From Glycocaulis sp. (GTDB lineage Bacteria; Pseudomonadota; Alphaproteobacteria; Caulobacterales; Maricaulaceae), in NCBI GenBank assembly GCA_022565665.1, contig JAIUMI010000005.1, positions 87,069 to 151,068 of the forward strand: DNA of 64,000 nucleotides, in the 5' to 3' direction. Shown piece by piece: positions 6,017 to 59,160 of the stretch (position 1 is the first letter of the stretch; each line of letters begins with the position of its first letter). The translations under genes and the position numbers were made by a program. The notes below the pieces were generated by a model. It did not search any database, had not been told where the DNA came from, and saw only the letters and a program-made list of their open reading frames with translations.

Positions 6017-6039
6017 CCCCTGATCCATTGGTGGCCTGC

Positions 6040-6441
6040 CTACTGAGGCTGGCCCGTCATGGTGGCGGCTTCGGCATTGATGCGCTCGGCCAGTTCAGGA
6101 TCGCTCTGCGAGCCAGCCACGATCGCGTTGTATTCATCAACGGTCAGTCCGGCCTGCTCCACGACCGCAATCATCTGCTGCTCGGCTTCCTGCTGAATGG
6201 CCATGGCAGTTTCCTGATCTTCGGCGGCCTCAAGCTGAGGCTGATAGCTCTGGGCAATCATGCCCACGCCTTGCGCTGCGGTGATGTAGGATCTGATCTG
6301 CTCATCCGTCACATCGGCAGAGCCAACAGGCGCAGGCTGCTGCATTGTAGCGCCTTCCTGCTGTGCCAGAGCAGCGGGCGCAGCCGCGCCAGCAGCAAGG
6401 ATCGTGGAGGCCAGCATGGCGGTGAGAAACGATTTTTTCAT
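6040..6441 (-). CDS. DUF4168 secreted protein
   Basis: A 133-residue protein. The start is set at the ATG at 6441 because it gives a clear signal peptide (MKKSFLTAML..., cut after ALAQ) and is preceded by GGAAGAGG; the frame continues upstream but without secretory sense. The mature part carries the DUF4168 pattern VTDEQIRSYITAAQGV and LTVDEYNAIV, with an acidic, Gln-rich helical middle. Function of the family is unknown; a periplasmic location is expected. A GGAAC-N16-CGTT promoter lies about 60 bases upstream, pointing to general-stress control by an EcfG-type sigma factor. A terminator follows the stop. Confidence 0.8.
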   Translation of the reverse strand: MKKSFLTAMLASTILAAGAAAPAALAQQEGATMQQPAPVGSADVTDEQIRSYITAAQGVGMIAQSYQPQLEAAEDQETAMAIQQEAEQQMIAVVEQAGLTVDEYNAIVAGSQSDPELAERINAEAATMTGQPQ

Positions 6442-6916
6442 AGGATTGCCTCTTCCCGGTTGCAGAACGTAAGCGCTGTATTGCGCGTGATAAAGCGGGA
6501 ACGTTTGAGTCTTAGCATCGTTCCCGGCCAATATCACCCTCATTACTGCGACCAATAAATCTGCCCATATATATGACACAATATTACAAAATTTTATGAC
6601 GATATATACGTCAGATGATTTTCGAGAATTCCAAATTCCATCAAACACATAGAAATAACGCACAAAGCGCGGGGTTTATCTCGGTCTGATCCGCAAACGC
6701 GACACCGATTTCAGTGCGATGACCGGGAAGGACGCCCCCAACTCCTGAAAACGATACCTGGTCAGGGGCGGTGATGCGCCAACCGTGGAACGGATCAGGT
6801 AGCGCTAAGCCCCACATTACCGCAAATTACGTGGACAAAAGCCGGCCTCCCGGCCATCTCTGTAACTGGATGCCTGCACATCTTTGCGGGCGGGGCTGAC
6901 CAATGGGGAATACAAG
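6442..6916. other. Intergenic region with an AT-rich island between DUF4168 and sppA
   Basis: A 475-base divergent spacer. The stretch 6541-6660 is only about 31% GC by hand count (37 of 120), against a GC-rich surround, with TATATA-type tracts at 6567-6574 and 6602-6607. The part 6661-6900 returns to high GC and should contain the sppA promoter, which was not identified. No coding region longer than a few dozen codons is credible here. Confidence 0.6.
6500..6524 (-). promoter_or_regulatory. EcfG-type (general stress) promoter GGAAC-N16-CGTT
   Basis: On the minus strand GGAAC (complement of 6520-6524) is followed by 16 bases and CGTT (complement of 6500-6503), the established consensus of alphaproteobacterial EcfG promoters. 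The ends are palindromic, so the plus strand also reads GGAAC-N16-CGTT. A start site near 6493 would give a leader of about 50 bases for the DUF4168 gene. Confidence 0.7.
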
Positions 6917-8761
6917 ATGGGCTTTGTAGCAAGGGCGTGGAGCGGTCTTGGCGCGATACAGCGTGGGATCATGCGGGTCATCGGTCTGATCGTGATGATC
7001 CTGGTATTGTTCTGGCTTGTCGGCGCGCTCTTTTCCAGCGATGCCGTGCGGGTCGGCCAGTCCGGCGCACTGGCGCTGGATCTTAACGGCCGTATCGTGG
7101 AGGAGCGCACCGTGGTCACGCCCACAAGCGCCCTGCAATCGGCGCTGTTTGGCGGCGGGCCCGCAGTGGAGATCCTGCTGGACGATGTGGTTCACGGCCT
7201 GCGTCTGGCGCGCGAGGATGACAGCGTTTCCACCATCGTCCTGGACCTGTCGCGCTTTGCCGGCGCTACGCCCGCCAGCCTGCACACCATCGCGGGTGAG
7301 ATGACCGCGTTCCGCGAGGCGGGCAAGACGATCCTCGCCCATTCGGGCATGTATGGCGATTCCAGCTGGTTCCTGGCGGCTCACGCGGACGAGGTGTTCC
7401 TGCACAATCAGGGCGTGGCCATGATCGAGGGCTATTCCAGCTTCCCGATCTATCTGCGCGGCCTGCTCGACCGGCTGGGCGTCACGGTGAACATCTTCCG
7501 GGTGGGCGAGTTCAAGTCAGCTATCGAACCGCTGGAACGTGCGGATATGTCCGAGGCTGACTATGAGGCGCGCGCCTATCTCTATGGCGATCTGTGGAAC
7601 GCCTATACCCGCGCTGCCGAGGCGGCGCGCGGGCTGCCCGCCGGTACGCTGCAGCGCCTTGGCGATACCGCTGACGCGGCCGTAATCGCTGCCGAGGGTG
7701 ATCTGGCCCGCGCTGCGCTGGATGCGGGTCTGGTAGACCAGCTGGTCAGCCGCACCAGCTTCAACGCCCTTCTGGATGAGCGCTTCGGCACGGTGGAGGA
7801 CGGCAAACGCCCGGACACCACCGACTTCTTTGAGTGGTTCAATGCCAACCGGCCCGAACCCGCGGGCCGCCAGCGCGATGTGATCGCAGTCATCAATGCC
7901 GTCGGCACCATTATTGATGGCGAGGCCGATGGCGGTGTGGTCGGCGGGGATATCCATGCCCGCCTGATCCGTCAGGCCCGGCTGGACCCGGAAGTGAAGG
8001 CGATCGTGCTGCGCATCGATAGCGGTGGTGGCGGGGTTTTCGCCTCCGAACTGATCCGCGAGGAGCTGGCGCAGGCCCGCGAAGACGGCCTGACGGTCAT
8101 TGCCTCCATGGGCGGGGTTGCAGCCTCTGGCGGCTACTGGATCGCCACGCCGGCCCATGAAATCTGGGCCCACCCCACCACGATTACCGGCTCGATCGGC
8201 ATTTTCGGCTTCGTGCCGACGTTCGAGACCGTGCTGGAGAATATCGGGGTCACCTCGGACGGCTATGCGTCCACCCGGTTGGGTGGCGCGATCTCGCTGG
8301 AACGGGGCATTGACGAATATGCCGCACGGATTTTCCAGGCCAGCATCGAGCGAGGCTATGAGAACTTCCTGGAGATTGTCGGCGAAGCCCGCGGCATGAG
8401 CCGGGACGAGGTGGACGCGGTAGCCCAGGGCCGGGTCTGGACCGGCACGCAGGCCCTCGAACGCGGGCTGGTCGACCGGCTGGGCACGTTTGACGAGGCC
8501 GTTGCACGCGCCGCAGAGCTCGCAGAGCTGGAAGACGGGCGCTGGCGCACCAAGGTGTTCACCGAGGAACGCTCCCAGCTCGAACGCATCCTGGCGGCGC
8601 TGGGCATGGACGCAGCAGCACGGGCGGGCGCTGGCGAGGGCGGATTGCTGGCCCGCCTGATCGGACAGGCCGCCGATGAAGCGCGCACCGTGGAGCTAAT
8701 GAACGACCCCACGGGCCGCTATGCGGTCTGCCTTGAATGCCCGGCTCTGGCGGTCCGGTAG
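6917..8761 (+). CDS. sppA: Signal peptide peptidase SppA, 67 kDa type
   Basis: A 614-residue membrane-anchored serine protease that degrades cleaved signal peptides and regulates membrane proteolysis. The start is set at ATG 6917, preceded by GGGGA at proper spacing. An upstream in-frame start would add 11 residues without a ribosome site. One N-terminal transmembrane helix (about residues 20-42) anchors a tandem pair of ClpP-fold domains. The N-terminal repeat carries the catalytic Lys in EFKSAIEPL (about Lys200). The C-terminal repeat carries the Ser nucleophile in GGVAASGGYW (about Ser404). Double-domain length matches E. coli SppA rather than the short SppA form. A strong terminator follows. 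Confidence 0.92.
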   Translation: MGFVARAWSGLGAIQRGIMRVIGLIVMILVLFWLVGALFSSDAVRVGQSGALALDLNGRIVEERTVVTPTSALQSALFGGGPAVEILLDDVVHGLRLAREDDSVSTIVLDLSRFAGATPASLHTIAGEMTAFREAGKTILAHSGMYGDSSWFLAAHADEVFLHNQGVAMIEGYSSFPIYLRGLLDRLGVTVNIFRVGEFKSAIEPLERADMSEADYEARAYLYGDLWNAYTRAAEAARGLPAGTLQRLGDTADAAVIAAEGDLARAALDAGLVDQLVSRTSFNALLDERFGTVEDGKRPDTTDFFEWFNANRPEPAGRQRDVIAVINAVGTIIDGEADGGVVGGDIHARLIRQARLDPEVKAIVLRIDSGGGGVFASELIREELAQAREDGLTVIASMGGVAASGGYWIATPAHEIWAHPTTITGSIGIFGFVPTFETVLENIGVTSDGYASTRLGGAISLERGIDEYAARIFQASIERGYENFLEIVGEARGMSRDEVDAVAQGRVWTGTQALERGLVDRLGTFDEAVARAAELAELEDGRWRTKVFTEERSQLERILAALGMDAAARAGAGEGGLLARLIGQAADEARTVELMNDPTGRYAVCLECPALAVR

Positions 8762-53161: not shown

Positions 53162-54070
53162 ATGTCCGTACTCGTCAACAAAGACACCAAGGTTCTCGTT
53201 CAGGGCCTCACCGGCAAGACCGGCACCTTCCACACCGAGCAGGCGCTGGCCTATTACGGCACCCGCATGGTCGGCGGCATCCACCCGAAAAAGGGCGGGG
53301 AAAGCTGGACCAGCGGCATGGACGGCGCGGCCTCGCTGCCGATTTTCTCTACCGTGGCCGAAGGCAAGGAGCGCACCGGCGCAACCGCTTCGGTCGTCTA
53401 TGTCCCGCCTGCAGGCGCGGGCGCGGCGATCATCGAAGCCATCGATGCAGGTATGGAGCTGATCGTGTGCATCACCGAGGGCATCCCGGTCATGGACATG
53501 GTGAAGGTCAAGGCCCGCCTCGAAAAGTCGAACTCGCGCCTGCTGGGTCCGAACTGCCCCGGCGTGCTGACCCCCGAAGAGTGCAAGATCGGCATCATGC
53601 CGGGCAACATTTTCAAGAAGGGCTCGGTCGGCGTTGTCTCGCGTTCGGGCACGCTGACCTATGAAGCCGTGTTCCAGACGACGGCTGAAGGCCTTGGCCA
53701 GACGACCGCGGTCGGCATTGGCGGCGATCCGGTGAAAGGCACCGAGTTCATCGACATCCTGGAAATGTTCCTGGCCGATGATGAGACCAAATCCATCATC
53801 ATGATCGGCGAGATCGGCGGCACGGCGGAAGAGGAAGCCGCCCAGTTCCTGCGCGACGAAGCGAAGAAGGGCCGCAAGAAGCCGATGGTCGGCTTCATTG
53901 CCGGGCGCACCGCGCCGAAGGGCCGCACGATGGGCCATGCGGGCGCGATCGTCGCCGGTGGCAAGGGCGATGCGGAAAGCAAGATCGAGGCGATGAAGTC
54001 GGCCGGGATCGTGGTCTCCGACAGCCCGGCGCGCCTTGGCACGACGCTTAGCGACGTGCTGAAGGGCTAG
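53162..54070 (+). CDS. sucD: Succinyl-CoA ligase, alpha subunit
   Basis: A 302-residue CoA-binding subunit: [18 protein letters not shown] at the N-terminus, the [19 protein letters not shown] segment, and phospho-His in [21 protein letters not shown]. Co-transcribed with sucC. The stop overlaps that of the BLUF gene (CTAG at 54067-54070). Downstream transcription into sucAB would have to cross the oppositely oriented BLUF/EAL-like pair. Confidence 0.97.
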
Positions 54071-54576
54071 CCGCCGCGCGCCTTCAACCGCAGACTCATC
54101 ACCGCATCGACGTCATGAATCTCGGTCAGGCGCCTCAATAGCGTCTCCCTGTCCATCTCCTTCCAGCCACTGCTGGCCCTTGTCGGCAGTGGCACTTCAC
54201 TGGCATTAGCAAAAGCCATGGCCCAGTCGTCGAACAGGCGCTCGCTGGCGGGCTCCTTCAGAAGCACGGTGACTTCGGTGTGACGCCTATCCTCGCAGAT
54301 GCGCGCGTAGATCTCGTCAACGGCAGCCTGCGGCCCTTCCAGCATCTGGATGAAGCGCCCCCGGTCATACACCAGCACACCGGTAACGCCCGCGCGGCGG
54401 TTATGGCGCTCGCACGCGGCCATGATGTCGGAAATCTCGGCGCGGAAATGACCCTGCCCACGCGGTATGGCAACCGCCGACACATAGACCAGACGGATGA
54501 GCCTGGCGGCCTTTGTGCCGGAACCGGGTGCTTGCCCGAGATATAGCTGGCGCTCACGGCGTTCAGGCATGCTCAT
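54067..54576 (-). CDS. BLUF-domain photoreceptor protein
   Basis: A 169-residue protein whose main part is a BLUF (blue light using FAD) domain, about residues 25-125. Visible key residues are the flavin Tyr in [11 protein letters not shown], the Asn in [20 protein letters not shown], the Gln in [21 protein letters not shown] and a Trp/Met in FDDWAMAF. About 24 residues precede and 45 follow the domain; no output domain is attached. The ATG overlaps the TGA of the upstream EAL-like gene (ATGA), so the two are coupled. Blue light probably alters its contact with that partner. Converges on sucD. Confidence 0.87.
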
Positions 54577-55819
54577 GATGCTCCCTCCGATGCATCCTCG
54601 CGCTCGCCCGGCGTGAACCGGAAAGGCAGGGCGGGCTGTCTGCGTTCTTCTGCAACCGCTTTGCCACTGAGATAATCCGGGCCGATGGCCAGCCAGCCCG
54701 CCAGCGTTACGGGATCATGGCACTCCTCCACGGCCAGCATGATGCGCTGGTGCGTCAGCTTGGCTGCAAATGCCGCCAGCGCCACGCTATGGCGCGCGAA
54801 CACTTCCGGGGCGGGCGCAGAGACGGAGAAGATATCGACCCGGGAATCGTTGAAACGGTCCAGCCGGACGGTACGCGGGTCGATCCGCACCATGATGCGG
54901 CGGGTCAGAGTCCGGGCCAGCCGGCACACCTCGGTCAGACTGCCCATCGGCGCATCCATGCCTGTACCAAGAATGTGCAGGATCAATGCGGAGCGCGTCT
55001 TCTCGTCCAGCGCATTGATCGCGGCCATGTAAGGCAGGCGGTATTTCACCGTCACCAGCGTCTCGAAATGCACGGGTACGGCGAGGGCGCCCGGTGTGCC
55101 CCTGTCTGAGGCTTCCTGCCACGCCCTGCCAGCGGCCATCAGTACGTCACGGTCAAACTCCATGCGCATCGCCCCGCCGCCCTCGCTGGGTGAGAGAACA
55201 TGCCCGCGTACCAATGGGCCGTCGCCGCGCAGGCGGCCGACAGGGTGAACAATGTTCAACGCCGCAAACCCCGTTGCCGATGCCCAGACCGGCTCGAAAC
55301 GCAGCTCGAAGGCGGGCAGGCGGACAGGTTCTGGCGAGCGTGAAGGCGGTATCGGCCTCACGCCTTCATCGACATCAAGCGCGTCCTCCTCTTCCGCAGC
55401 CTCATGGGCGCGTGCGGCCGCGTCCATCGGGTCGGAATGGATGCCGCCAAACAGGTCTGACAGCGCGATGTCCACGGTCTCGGCGTGCAGTCCCAGGCCA
55501 GCGAGATAATCGTGCCAAGGAAAAAGGCCTTCAGCTCAGTCTCGATACGGCGGGTGAAGGCTTCAGCCTCTTCTGCCCGCGACGGGCCGGGCAGGACGAT
55601 AAATCCGTTGGCCGCGCACAGAATAAGATCATCTGACCCGATACGCTTGGAAATGAACTGTTCGCACGTGTCAAAGATGCGTTCCTTCACGCGCGGCCAC
55701 TTGTCCTTGTACTGTGCTTCGAGCACATCCAGATTGATCAGCTGGAGCTGTGTGGTCTCCAGCCGGGCAGCTTCCTTCAGTTTGGGACGGAAGCGGGCCA
55801 GTGTTGACAGAACCGACAT
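54573..55819 (-). pseudogene. Degenerate GGDEF/EAL-like protein, interrupted by a frameshift
   Basis: One gene in two frames. The 5' frame (from ATG 55819, MSVLSTLARFRPKLKEAARL) has a GGDEF-like pattern LQLINLDVLEAQYKDKWPRV and RIGSDDLILCAANGFIVLPG, where the catalytic GGDEF reads ANGFI. The 3' frame (open to 54573) looks like an EAL domain with start LRFEPVWASATGFAALNIVHPV (EAL replaced by ALN) and end RIMLAVEECHDPVTLAG, then AIGPDYLSGKAV. Break: T5 run (complement of 55521-55525). One more T joins ELKAFF to PWHDYLAGLGLHAETVDIALSDLF. Full length about 415 residues. Likely a catalytically dead c-di-GMP-type effector paired with the BLUF protein. Domain calls are by eye. Confidence 0.62.
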
Positions 55820-56172
55820 CACATCACTTGTGCGGAGCTGCGGGCTGTTCGCGCTCCTGACAGGAATTAAAATATTCCAAGCATGAAACTTCAAATTACA
55901 AACAGAAAGACAGTTAACCGCACACTATGCTTTATGTGTTGTTCATGAGTGTGATGGCGTGGCGCAACTGTCCCCGGCCGGTGCGCGGCCGACCAGGCAC
56001 GCCGCGATATCGTGCAGGTGTGCACCACACGAACGTACGTTCGTGCCTATTGCCGTTCCAGAGCACGATTTGCATCCATTTGGGCTTCTCAATTGCGTCC
56101 AACACGCATAGATGTGAAGCCATCCCCCTTGTGCGCCCTTGTGCGCTGCACTCCCTGCCCTGAAGGGCCAAG
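55820..56172. other. Spacer between the GGDEF/EAL-like gene and sucA
   Basis: A 353-base divergent spacer. It holds a perfect 18-bp palindrome at 56028-56045, a GC-rich hairpin-prone stretch (55972-56000), and an AT-rich piece at 55868-55940 that probably contains the EAL-like gene promoter. No coding region is credible. The sucA ATG at 56173 is preceded by TGAAGGGCC. Confidence 0.55.
56028..56045. promoter_or_regulatory. 18-bp perfect palindrome upstream of sucA
   Basis: CACGAACGTACGTTCGTG reads the same on both strands. It lies about 130 bases before sucA and 210 bases before the EAL-like gene start. Size and symmetry fit a TetR-like dimer site; the protein is unknown. Confidence 0.5.
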
Positions 56173-59160
56173 ATGACCGACGCTCGCTCCTCCACGAACC
56201 AGACTTTCCTCGACACTTCTTTCCTTTTCGGCGCCAACGCCATCTATCTGGAAGACATGGCCGCCCGCTATGCCAGCGATCCGGCCTCGGTCCCGGCGAG
56301 CTGGCGGAAATTCTTTGAAGCGGTCGGCGATGAAGCCTCCGCCGCCACGCGCGCTGCGAAGGGACCGGGCTGGAAGCGCAAGGACTGGCCGCGCGAGGCT
56401 AATGGCGAAATGGTCTCCGCGCTGGGCGATATCGAGCGCGCCGTTCCTGCCCTGCCGGAGAAAATCGCCGCCCGCATGGATGGTGCTGCTCCCGCTGACA
56501 TTCACGCGGCCGTCAAGGACAGCATCTCGGCCATCATGCTGATCCGCGCCTACCGCATGCGCGGGCATCTGGCGGCCGACCTCGACCCACTGGGCCTGTC
56601 AGAGCGCGAGCCGCAGCCCGAGCTCGATCCGGGAAATTACGGGTTTGGCGAGGCCGATCTCGACCGCGAGATTTTCATCAATGGCTATCTCGGCCTTGAG
56701 ACCGCGACCGTCCGCGAAATCCTCGACATCCTGCAACGCACCTATTGCGGCACGTTCGGCGTGGAGTTCATGCACATCTCCAATCCGGAGGAAAAAGCAT
56801 GGCTGCAGGAGCGTATTGAAGGGCCGGACAAGGAGATCGCCTTTTCCGACAACGGCAAGAAGGCGATCCTGAGAAAGCTGGTCGAGACGGAAGCCTTCGA
56901 GCGCTTCCTGCACAAGCGCTATCCCGGCACCAAGCGCTTCGGCATTGATGGCGGCGAGGCGATGGTTCCCGCGCTCGAACAGATCATCAAGCGCGGCGGG
57001 GCCATGGGCGTCACCGATATCGTGCTGGGCATGCCCCACCGGGGCCGGCTGAACGTGCTCGCCGCCGTGATGGGCAAGCCCTATCATGTGATCTTCCACG
57101 AATTCCAGGGCGGCTCGACGCTGGGCGAGGACGAGTTCTCGTCAGGCGATGTGAAATACCATCTGGGTTCGTCATCCACGCGCGAGTTCGACGGCAATAC
57201 CGTCAACCTGTCGCTCACCGCCAACCCCTCCCACCTGGAGGCCGTTGACCCGGTGGTGCTGGGCAAGGTGCGCGCCAAGCAGTTCAAATACCGTGTGCAG
57301 CTGGGCGATGATGCCAATACCGCTGAAAAGGTACTGCCGCTCCTGCTGCACGGGGATGCGGCCTTTGCCGGGCAGGGCATTGTGGCAGAATGCTTCGGCC
57401 TGTCGGGCCTGAAGGGCCACCGAACGGGCGGGGCCGTCCACTTCATCGTCAACAACCAGATCGGCTTTACCACCGACCCGAAGGATTCCCGGTCCTCGCC
57501 CTATCCGTCCGACGTGGCGCTGATGGTGCAGGCCCCGATCTTCCATGTGAACGGGGATGACCCCGAAGCGGTCGTCTTTGCCGCCAAGATCGCCACCGAA
57601 TACCGTCAGACCTTCGGCAAGGATGTCGTCATCGACATGTTCTGCTATCGCCGATTTGGCCATAACGAGGGCGATGATCCCTCCTTCACCCAGCCGATCA
57701 TGTACAAGGCGATCGCCGGGCATAAGCCGACCCGCGACCTTTACACCGAACGCCTGATGGATGAGGGCGTCGTCACCAAGGACGAGGTGGATGGCTGGGT
57801 CAGCGAGTTTGAGGCCTTCCTTGATGACGAGTTCGAGCTCGGCAAATCCTACAAGACCAACAAGGCCGACTGGCTGGACGGCGTGTGGGCCGGGTTGGGC
57901 CTGCCCGACGAGGATGACCGGCGCGGCCAGACCGCCGTGGACATGGACCGGCTGAAGGATGTCGGCCAGGCGATGACGGAAATCCCGTCCGGCTACAACA
58001 TCCACAGAACGCTGCAGCGCGTGATCAAGGCCCGCCGCGACGCCATCGAGGCGGGCGAAGGCATTGACTGGGCGACCGCCGAGCATCTGGCCTTCGGCAC
58101 GCTGCTGACCGAGGGCTTCCCCGTGCGCCTTTCGGGCCAGGATTGCGGCCGGGGCACGTTCTCCCAGCGCCATTCCCACCTGATCGATCAGGAAACCCAG
58201 GAGCGCCATACCTTCCTCAATCATCTGAGTGAGGATCAGGCGCGCTATGAAGTGATCGATTCCATGCTGTCGGAAGAGGCCGTGCTGGGCTTTGAGTATG
58301 GCTACTCGCTCTCCGCGCCCAATACGCTCGTGATGTGGGAAGCCCAGTTCGGCGACTTCACCAACGGCGCGCAGGTCATCATCGACCAGTTCATTTCCTC
58401 TTCGGAGCGCAAATGGCTGCGCATGTCCGGCCTCGTCATGCTGCTGCCCCATGGCTATGAGGGGCAGGGCCCGGAGCACTCCTCGGCCCGCCTTGAGCGC
58501 TTCCTGCAGCAATGCGCCGAGGACAATATGCAGGTGGCCAACTGCTCCACCCCGGCGAACTATTTCCACATTCTGCGGCGCCAGATCCACCGGGGCTTCC
58601 GCAAGCCGCTGGTGATCATGACGCCCAAATCGCTTCTGCGTCACAAGCGCTGCGTGTCCGATCTCTCCGAGTTCGGTCCGGGCTCCTCCTTCCACCGCGT
58701 ATTGTGGGATGATGGTGATCAGAGCGTGCGCAAGGACCGGGGCGAGTTCGCCCAGCTGAGCGCCGAACCGCTGGCCGCGGACAAGGATATCCGCCGCGTC
58801 GTGCTGTGCTCGGGCAAGGTCTATTATGATCTGCTTGAAGCGCGCGAGGCCAAGGGCATCAACGATGTCTACCTCTTGCGCGTGGAGCAGTTCTATCCCT
58901 TCCCCGCCAAGTCTATCATTGACGAGCTGAAGCGCTTCCCCGACGCCGACATTGTCTGGTGTCAGGAGGAGCCGAAGAATATGGGCGGCTGGACCTTCGT
59001 GGAGCCCTATCTGGAATTCTGCCTTGAGAAGGTGGGTGGCAAGTCGACCCGTCCGCGCTATGCGGGCCGGGCCGCCTCCGCCTCGACCGCGACAGGGTTG
59101 CTCTCACGCCATCAGGCCCAGCAGAAAGCCCTCGTTGACGAAGCCCTTTCCGACGACTGA
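56173..59160 (+). CDS. sucA: 2-oxoglutarate dehydrogenase E1 component
   Basis: A 995-residue thiamine-diphosphate enzyme that decarboxylates 2-oxoglutarate. Motifs: N-terminal lipoyl-E2-interacting helix region (NQTFLDTSFLFGANAIYLEDM), GMPHRGRLNVLAAVMGKP, the ThDP/Mg site GDDPEAVVFAAKIATEYRQTFGKDVVIDMFCYRRFGHNEGDDPSFTQP (seen in parts), and the C-terminal QEEPKNMGGWTFVEPYLE. Length and order are those of alphaproteobacterial SucA. sucB follows after 30 bases. A palindrome upstream may regulate it. Confidence 0.98.
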   Translation: MTDARSSTNQTFLDTSFLFGANAIYLEDMAARYASDPASVPASWRKFFEAVGDEASAATRAAKGPGWKRKDWPREANGEMVSALGDIERAVPALPEKIAARMDGAAPADIHAAVKDSISAIMLIRAYRMRGHLAADLDPLGLSEREPQPELDPGNYGFGEADLDREIFINGYLGLETATVREILDILQRTYCGTFGVEFMHISNPEEKAWLQERIEGPDKEIAFSDNGKKAILRKLVETEAFERFLHKRYPGTKRFGIDGGEAMVPALEQIIKRGGAMGVTDIVLGMPHRGRLNVLAAVMGKPYHVIFHEFQGGSTLGEDEFSSGDVKYHLGSSSTREFDGNTVNLSLTANPSHLEAVDPVVLGKVRAKQFKYRVQLGDDANTAEKVLPLLLHGDAAFAGQGIVAECFGLSGLKGHRTGGAVHFIVNNQIGFTTDPKDSRSSPYPSDVALMVQAPIFHVNGDDPEAVVFAAKIATEYRQTFGKDVVIDMFCYRRFGHNEGDDPSFTQPIMYKAIAGHKPTRDLYTERLMDEGVVTKDEVDGWVSEFEAFLDDEFELGKSYKTNKADWLDGVWAGLGLPDEDDRRGQTAVDMDRLKDVGQAMTEIPSGYNIHRTLQRVIKARRDAIEAGEGIDWATAEHLAFGTLLTEGFPVRLSGQDCGRGTFSQRHSHLIDQETQERHTFLNHLSEDQARYEVIDSMLSEEAVLGFEYGYSLSAPNTLVMWEAQFGDFTNGAQVIIDQFISSSERKWLRMSGLVMLLPHGYEGQGPEHSSARLERFLQQCAEDNMQVANCSTPANYFHILRRQIHRGFRKPLVIMTPKSLLRHKRCVSDLSEFGPGSSFHRVLWDDGDQSVRKDRGEFAQLSAEPLAADKDIRRVVLCSGKVYYDLLEAREAKGINDVYLLRVEQFYPFPAKSIIDELKRFPDADIVWCQEEPKNMGGWTFVEPYLEFCLEKVGGKSTRPRYAGRAASASTATGLLSRHQAQQKALVDEALSDD

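Follow-up and report, generated by a model that had tools for sequence, protein, structure and literature searches.

A short gene for a blue-light receptor of the BLUF type lies head to tail with a gene for an apparently degenerate GGDEF-EAL protein, and both are set among genes of the TCA cycle. The question raised by this locus is whether the two proteins make up a light switch whose output is no longer enzymatic, and, if so, whether that switch is still in working order in the genome in which it was found. The window, that is the whole stretch of 64,000 nucleotides that was analysed, holds the following features at this place:

53162..54070, (+): sucD, convergent neighbour, its 3' end overlapping that of the BLUF gene by 4 bases
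54067..54576, (-): stand-alone BLUF photoreceptor gene, 169 aa, Pfam PF04940
54573..54576, (-): ATGA overlap of the partner-frame stop with the BLUF start, GGAGGG a few bases upstream
54573..55523, (-): pseudo-EAL (C-terminal) frame of the partner gene, family match from about 55511 down, profile positions 104-403
55511..55513, (-): frame-change site, one base fewer in the window than in G008
55358..55819, (-): pseudo-GGDEF (N-terminal) frame of the partner gene, ATG at 55819, stop at 55358, profile positions 1-103
55820..56172, no strand: divergent intergenic region from the partner gene to sucA
56173..59160, (+): sucA, divergent neighbour, named by eye

The BLUF protein and the predicted fold of its partner

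The preliminary description of this DNA had reported a stand-alone BLUF gene joined to an upstream gene by an ATGA overlap, and the open reading frame at 54067-54576 does match Pfam BLUF PF04940 with an E-value of 2.6e-29 (101.6 bits, residues 26-121), followed by a C-terminal helix at residues 143-157. Y31, N59, Q77, W118 and M120 are invariant across the 11 paired BLUFs of alignment A3, in which the frameshifted G010 and G076, whose BLUF lacks the Trp and Met, were left out; these are the Tyr, Asn, Gln and Trp/Met positions of the flavin site. The AlphaFold model of the protein (pLDDT 80.9) found PixD Tll0078 as its top PDB match in Foldseek (E 2.3e-10). By profile and fold, the window protein is a BLUF photoreceptor domain, for which FAD binding and a red-shifted photocycle would be expected, and its gene is probably translated together with that of the partner.

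For the partner, single-sequence scans of both window halves against Pfam and NCBIfam gave no GGDEF, EAL or other informative match. A degenerate GGDEF and EAL outline had nevertheless been proposed by eye, with profile and Foldseek searches as the way to check it, and both searches returned GGDEF-EAL similarity. Pfam EAL was matched by 4 of 22 family members (best E 0.011), and the profile of this 22-member family had FimX (4foj, E 4.7e-4) as its best PDB match. The AlphaFold model of the intact partner of G008 (pLDDT 86.4) was matched in Foldseek by the GGDEF-EAL structures of PA0575 (5m3c, 1.4e-12) and LapD (3pjw, 1.6e-11), then by PA0861 and DosP, and the EAL domain of FimX (3hv9) gave a TM to target of 0.72. 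The whole-chain TM of this model is only about 0.4-0.5, probably because its domains sit at a different angle across a flexible linker, residues 143-162, where the pLDDT is below 50. Judged on the model of the intact G008 protein and on the family profile, the partner is a GGDEF-EAL tandem in its predicted fold.

The residues of the GGDEF and EAL motifs have catalytic roles, and their sites were located by profile comparison with the source genome's own canonical GGDEF-EAL proteins. The strength of this mapping was weak in local runs with two canonical proteins (E 0.005-0.014, probability 3-7%) and higher in global runs (E about 1e-6, 81-83%) and in runs that took the EAL regions from four proteins (E 5.9e-7, 92%). 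In G008, GGDEF falls on A-N-G-gap-F and the first Asp of DLD on Asn29. In the second domain, the Glu of EAL corresponds to Leu190, the Asn of NxS to Pro249 (His251 in one run) and the first Glu of ELTE to His282, with a register that is unsure (Ser294 in local runs); the two Asps of DDFG correspond to Glu312 and Asp314, the Lys to Ser332, the Glu of EGVE to Gln365 and the Gln of QG to Ala385. The second Asp of DDFG is thus the sole catalytic residue that this mapping retains; close to the first Asp lies an acidic residue. Both strings that had been read as the relics of the two motifs, ANGFI and ALN, do occur; ANG-F does stand in place of GGDEF, but ALN is not the EAL site, which maps two residues further on, to LVH in G008 and to IVH in the window protein, and in neither register is there a Glu.

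The GGDEF signature of an active diguanylate cyclase and nearly all positions of an active EAL phosphodiesterase are consequently missing, and the partner is, by its sequence, catalytically dead. Most of the mapped EAL metal and substrate positions are not conserved across the family (A1). All 22 A1 rows keep Asn29 and the FFLG that closes the first domain, but neither is invariant in the most distant Caulobacterales relatives. Elsewhere in the source genome, 5 EAL and 6 GGDEF matches exceed the Pfam cut-offs, so that routine turnover of c-di-GMP does not depend on the dead partner.

Inheritance of the pair and the broken partner gene

The co-occurrence survey that had been suggested as a second check covered the 137 genomes of the family. 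Matches were found to the window C part in 54 of them, to the family profile in 68 (some of the weak ones may be ordinary EAL proteins) and to BLUF in 89. A pair-type locus is present in 14 genomes: the source genome of the window (G000) and its congeners G008-G012, among them Glycocaulis albus (G009), G. profundi (G011) and the MAG HLUCCA04 (G012), together with G081, G082 (Marinicauda pacifica), G084 (Alkalicaulis satelles), G089, G090, G093, G094 and G076. Both genes are there, at least as remnants, in 13 of the 14, G009 being without BLUF. In the partner tree (35 rows, the split window gene and the remnants of G090 and G094 left out), the 11 pair-type partners, including those of G009 and G076, form one clade with 100/100 support. 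Eleven of the 12 paired BLUFs likewise form one clade (94/86) in the BLUF tree, with the long-branched G076 outside, and a single clade of all 12 was not rejected (AU p 0.285). Measured from the beginning of the partner stop codon, the BLUF start lies anywhere from 1 base ahead to 26 bases beyond in all nine readable loci, and the ATGA overlap itself recurs in five of the nine with a readable partner stop. No BLUF was found by tblastn with the window BLUF near the other members of the dead family that were examined (flanks of about 1.5-5 kb). The pair is co-inherited across at least three genera within a narrow set of aquatic bacteria. Neither of the outcomes that the preliminary description had named as refuting, a lack of profile similarity and a lack of the pairing in all relatives, was thus observed.

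Some further observations were made in the course of the survey. A second BLUF gene of the source genome (L002, G000:C9:105111-105395) falls outside the paired clade. The locus of G076 (L104, about 6024-7867) has the reverse order, with its BLUF, devoid of the Trp and Met, upstream of the partner. A contig scan with the window C part gave no match, and a scan with A2 gave seven named loci. In G602, a genome of the same order, the dead GGDEF-EAL family is matched six times, and a single contig carries four of these matches. Among the best-scoring 60 BLUF loci, 29 of them from a class-wide search, a motif scan of flanks of up to 1.5 kb, which a weaker or more distant EAL would escape, detected an intact EAL gene beside BLUF in L142 only (G241); there the two genes are on opposite strands, possibly in a PapB-PapA-like neighbourhood.

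In the window, the partner gene (54573-55819, minus strand), upstream of BLUF, is broken by one frame change. The part of its N-terminal frame that matches the family spans 55514-55819 (102 aa), after which translation continues out of frame to 55358. In G008, the nearest relative, of the same genus and 80% identical, the partner is an open frame of 441 codons, and a single frame runs across the break site in all 22 relatives aligned (A1). The wording "frame-restored" in the preliminary description was therefore apt, since these relatives keep one frame where the window is split; its suggestion of a two-protein light switch is not supported as it stood, the partner in the window being frameshifted and 6 of the 14 family loci damaged.

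Each of the six is damaged in one partner. The window has the partner frameshift and G010 a BLUF frameshift; the partner of G093 goes out of frame around profile position 385 and extends beyond the start of BLUF; G090 and G094 keep partner remnants only, at profile positions 1-85 plus 330-404 and 316-406 respectively; and G009 has no BLUF, the gap from its partner gene to sucD being below 20 bases. Seven of the 14 loci (G008, G011, G012, G081, G082, G084 and G089) show the usual gene order with both frames open, and G076, with its reversed order, belongs to neither set. Between the window and G008, dN/dS is 0.031 for the N part of the partner, 0.150 for its C part and 0.171 for BLUF, the control values being 0.041 for sucC, 0.039 for sucD and 0.097 for sucA, and it lies between 0.07 and 0.40 in the other pairs compared. 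The pseudo-GGDEF value is below that of the C part in the window-G008 comparison and in all six other pairs. Both genes are under purifying selection, and because this has held since the split from G008, the break in the window is probably recent. With so recent a change of frame, the window switch has probably ceased to work, or survives as no more than BLUF and a pseudo-GGDEF fragment, and the pair is probably non-functional in the source genome.

Alternatively, the frame change could be an artefact of sequencing or assembly, with an intact pair in the organism. The difference of one base only and the strong purifying selection on both parts since the G008 split speak for this. On the other hand, when 24 G008 ORFs were compared with their window counterparts, the partner gene alone was split between frames, which makes a generally error-ridden assembly unlikely, and the losses in G009, G090 and G094 exceed what one-base errors explain. 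In the reverse comparison, 3 of 26 window ORFs match more than one frame of G008, one antisense to sucC, one with pieces more than 1 kb apart and one with a 32-residue start stretch abutting the main match; these were not taken as frameshifts, which is clear for the first two only. A single sequencing error at the frame change may have occurred, and an intact pair is possible, at something under one chance in three by our estimate. Programmed ribosomal frameshifting joining both partner frames in the source genome, at the TTTTTCC run found less than 15 bases upstream of the frame change, is highly improbable and was rejected because the 22 A1 relatives keep one frame; a slip at that run would moreover replace the LGT after FF, including a Gly that is invariant in A1.

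BLUF persists where most of the pseudo-EAL is gone (G090, G094), and the pseudo-EAL where BLUF is missing or broken (G009, G010), so that the partners may not be strictly co-dependent. A relative-rate test for faster pseudo-EAL change after the BLUF loss in G009 was nominally significant with one of three outgroups. From damage and selection together, the pair looks like a useful but dispensable accessory.

The suc neighbourhood

The pair had been placed between sucCD and sucAB, and the flanking genes were recognised as described: by eye, the window neighbours look like sucCD, sucAB, lpd and an MFS gene. Pfam confirmed sucC and sucD in a relative, and sucA and sucB were recognised by eye. In its own genus, the pair lies between sucD and sucA in 4 of 6 genomes; G009 has the partner alone at that place, and in G011 the pair is located elsewhere. 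In the genus of Alkalicaulis satelles (g15), the pair adjoins sucA in 5 pair loci. The search for suc genes came up empty within about 6 kb of the pair in G011, G081, G082 and G076, and likewise around 11 relatives belonging to other Caulobacterales families, where most stretches reached about 5 kb to each side.

Unexpectedly, 17 of the 18 genomes examined in another genus, g12, have members of a BLUF-free group of the dead family immediately upstream of sucC and in the same orientation (for example L113 3099-6675, G063). sucD comes next wherever the stretch reached it, and the one exception is G072, where none was seen within flanks of 1.5 kb. One clade of both suc-linked groups, as from a single ancestor already in place, was rejected (AU p 0.0005, with 9 g12 rows in the tree), so that the suc linkage is either ancient with frequent losses or arose twice. 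The TCA-cluster setting given in the preliminary description is only partly conserved, and it is shared with the BLUF-free group.

The linkage suggests a metabolic connection and no more. The wider proposal, that the Caulobacterales dead GGDEF-EAL family has become, in the bacterial family studied, a regulator tied to the suc genes (2-oxoglutarate to succinate), with one group upstream of sucC without BLUF and another beside sucA with BLUF, is regarded by us as distinctly unlikely; if true, one lineage would have brought a signalling scaffold that is linked to the TCA cycle and works without c-di-GMP under the control of blue light.

Two other features of these neighbourhoods were observed. 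A third group of the family is found between S9-peptidase-like and TonB-receptor-like genes (L116, L119, L122, L126, L127), and malate synthase matches lie beyond the TonB receptor in four of these (L116, L119, L126, L127) and in L125 as well. A perfect palindrome, ACGAACGTACGTTCGT, occupies window positions 56029-56044 in the region from the partner gene to sucA; it has a near-copy in G008 and is, by eye, partly conserved upstream of the partner in G009, G010 and G012. With up to 2 mismatches allowed, the frequency of this pattern does not exceed chance (3 matches vs 2.12 expected).

A proposed two-protein switch and its known counterparts

Short BLUFs of the PixD type (Tll0078, Slr1694), the closest structural match of the window BLUF, signal to a separate partner, PixE, which is not known to be a GGDEF-EAL protein. 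The partner shares its GGDEF-EAL fold with FimX, LapD and PA0575, the last of which we take to be RmcA; no separate BLUF is known to belong to these. FimX and LapD are also degenerate, and FimX, LapD and RmcA carry sensory or membrane parts of their own. papA and papB are neighbouring genes, and the BLUF and EAL-fold partner genes of our locus are likewise separate and adjacent.

According to excerpts of PMC8846402, the short BLUF PapB of Rhodopseudomonas palustris drives a separate EAL protein, PapA, in a heterotetramer; PapB-PapA is already a split BLUF/EAL switch, so that a separate short BLUF protein with an EAL-fold partner, which the preliminary description had set apart from the known fused proteins, is not without precedent. 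PapA is in the same excerpts a solo-EAL phosphodiesterase, whereas here, in a comparison by description, a GGDEF-EAL tandem has lost its catalytic positions. The BluF (YcgF) of E. coli, with a degenerate EAL devoid of phosphodiesterase activity that acts on BluR by protein contact (excerpts of PMC3509220), has the same BLUF input and degenerate EAL output, but in one fused chain instead of two chains and a pseudo-GGDEF. Among the genes named by eye around the pair in the window, none was recognised as a counterpart of bluR, the adjacent MerR-type gene of that system. In BlrP1 of Klebsiella, a BLUF also controls an EAL fold, but the two are fused and enzymatically active (excerpts of PMC8846402). 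As far as these excerpts go, neither PapB-PapA nor BluF has a dead GGDEF-EAL tandem as a separate partner, and the searches made of open-licence PMC papers did not turn up a pair of BLUF with a dead GGDEF-EAL protein.

From sequence, models and analogy with these systems, the short PixD/PapB-type BLUF and the dead GGDEF-EAL protein may well act together as a blue-light switch of two proteins, with a non-enzymatic scaffold under the control of BLUF, a reading that we hold with moderate confidence. The BLUF would bind the dead GGDEF-EAL protein, and blue light would alter the contact between them; the dead partner would then gate some third partner through protein-protein contact, as the degenerate EAL of BluF does with BluR, and c-di-GMP would be neither made nor broken in the process.

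Two other readings of the pair, both unlikely in our estimation, were weighed. The dead GGDEF-EAL protein could be a c-di-GMP receptor of the FimX/LapD kind, with BLUF modulating its ligand binding or its partner; FimX is indeed the best PDB profile match and among the nearest EAL folds, and the source genome encodes canonical GGDEF and EAL proteins, but the metal and substrate positions of active EALs are replaced except for one Asp, and most are unconserved in the family. The genes could also be neighbours with no joint function, BLUF acting alone or with another partner and the pseudo-EAL being a separate scaffold. Partners that persist alone or beside a remnant (G009, G090, G094) are consistent with this, as is a pseudo-EAL neighbour in only 13 of the genomes against BLUF in 89 of 137. 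Against it stand the co-inheritance over at least three genera, the short spacing or overlap of the genes and the fact that the pair stays together away from the suc genes in G011, G081 and G082.

Taken as a two-protein switch, the pair would join the split BLUF/EAL arrangement of PapB-PapA with the dead EAL output of BluF, and would provide a clean example from nature of GGDEF-EAL enzymes converted entirely to a scaffold gated by light. With close relatives that have intact pairs, others that have lost a single partner and paralogues free of BLUF, the family offers ready comparisons for the roles of such dead enzymes and for their possible contact with central metabolism.
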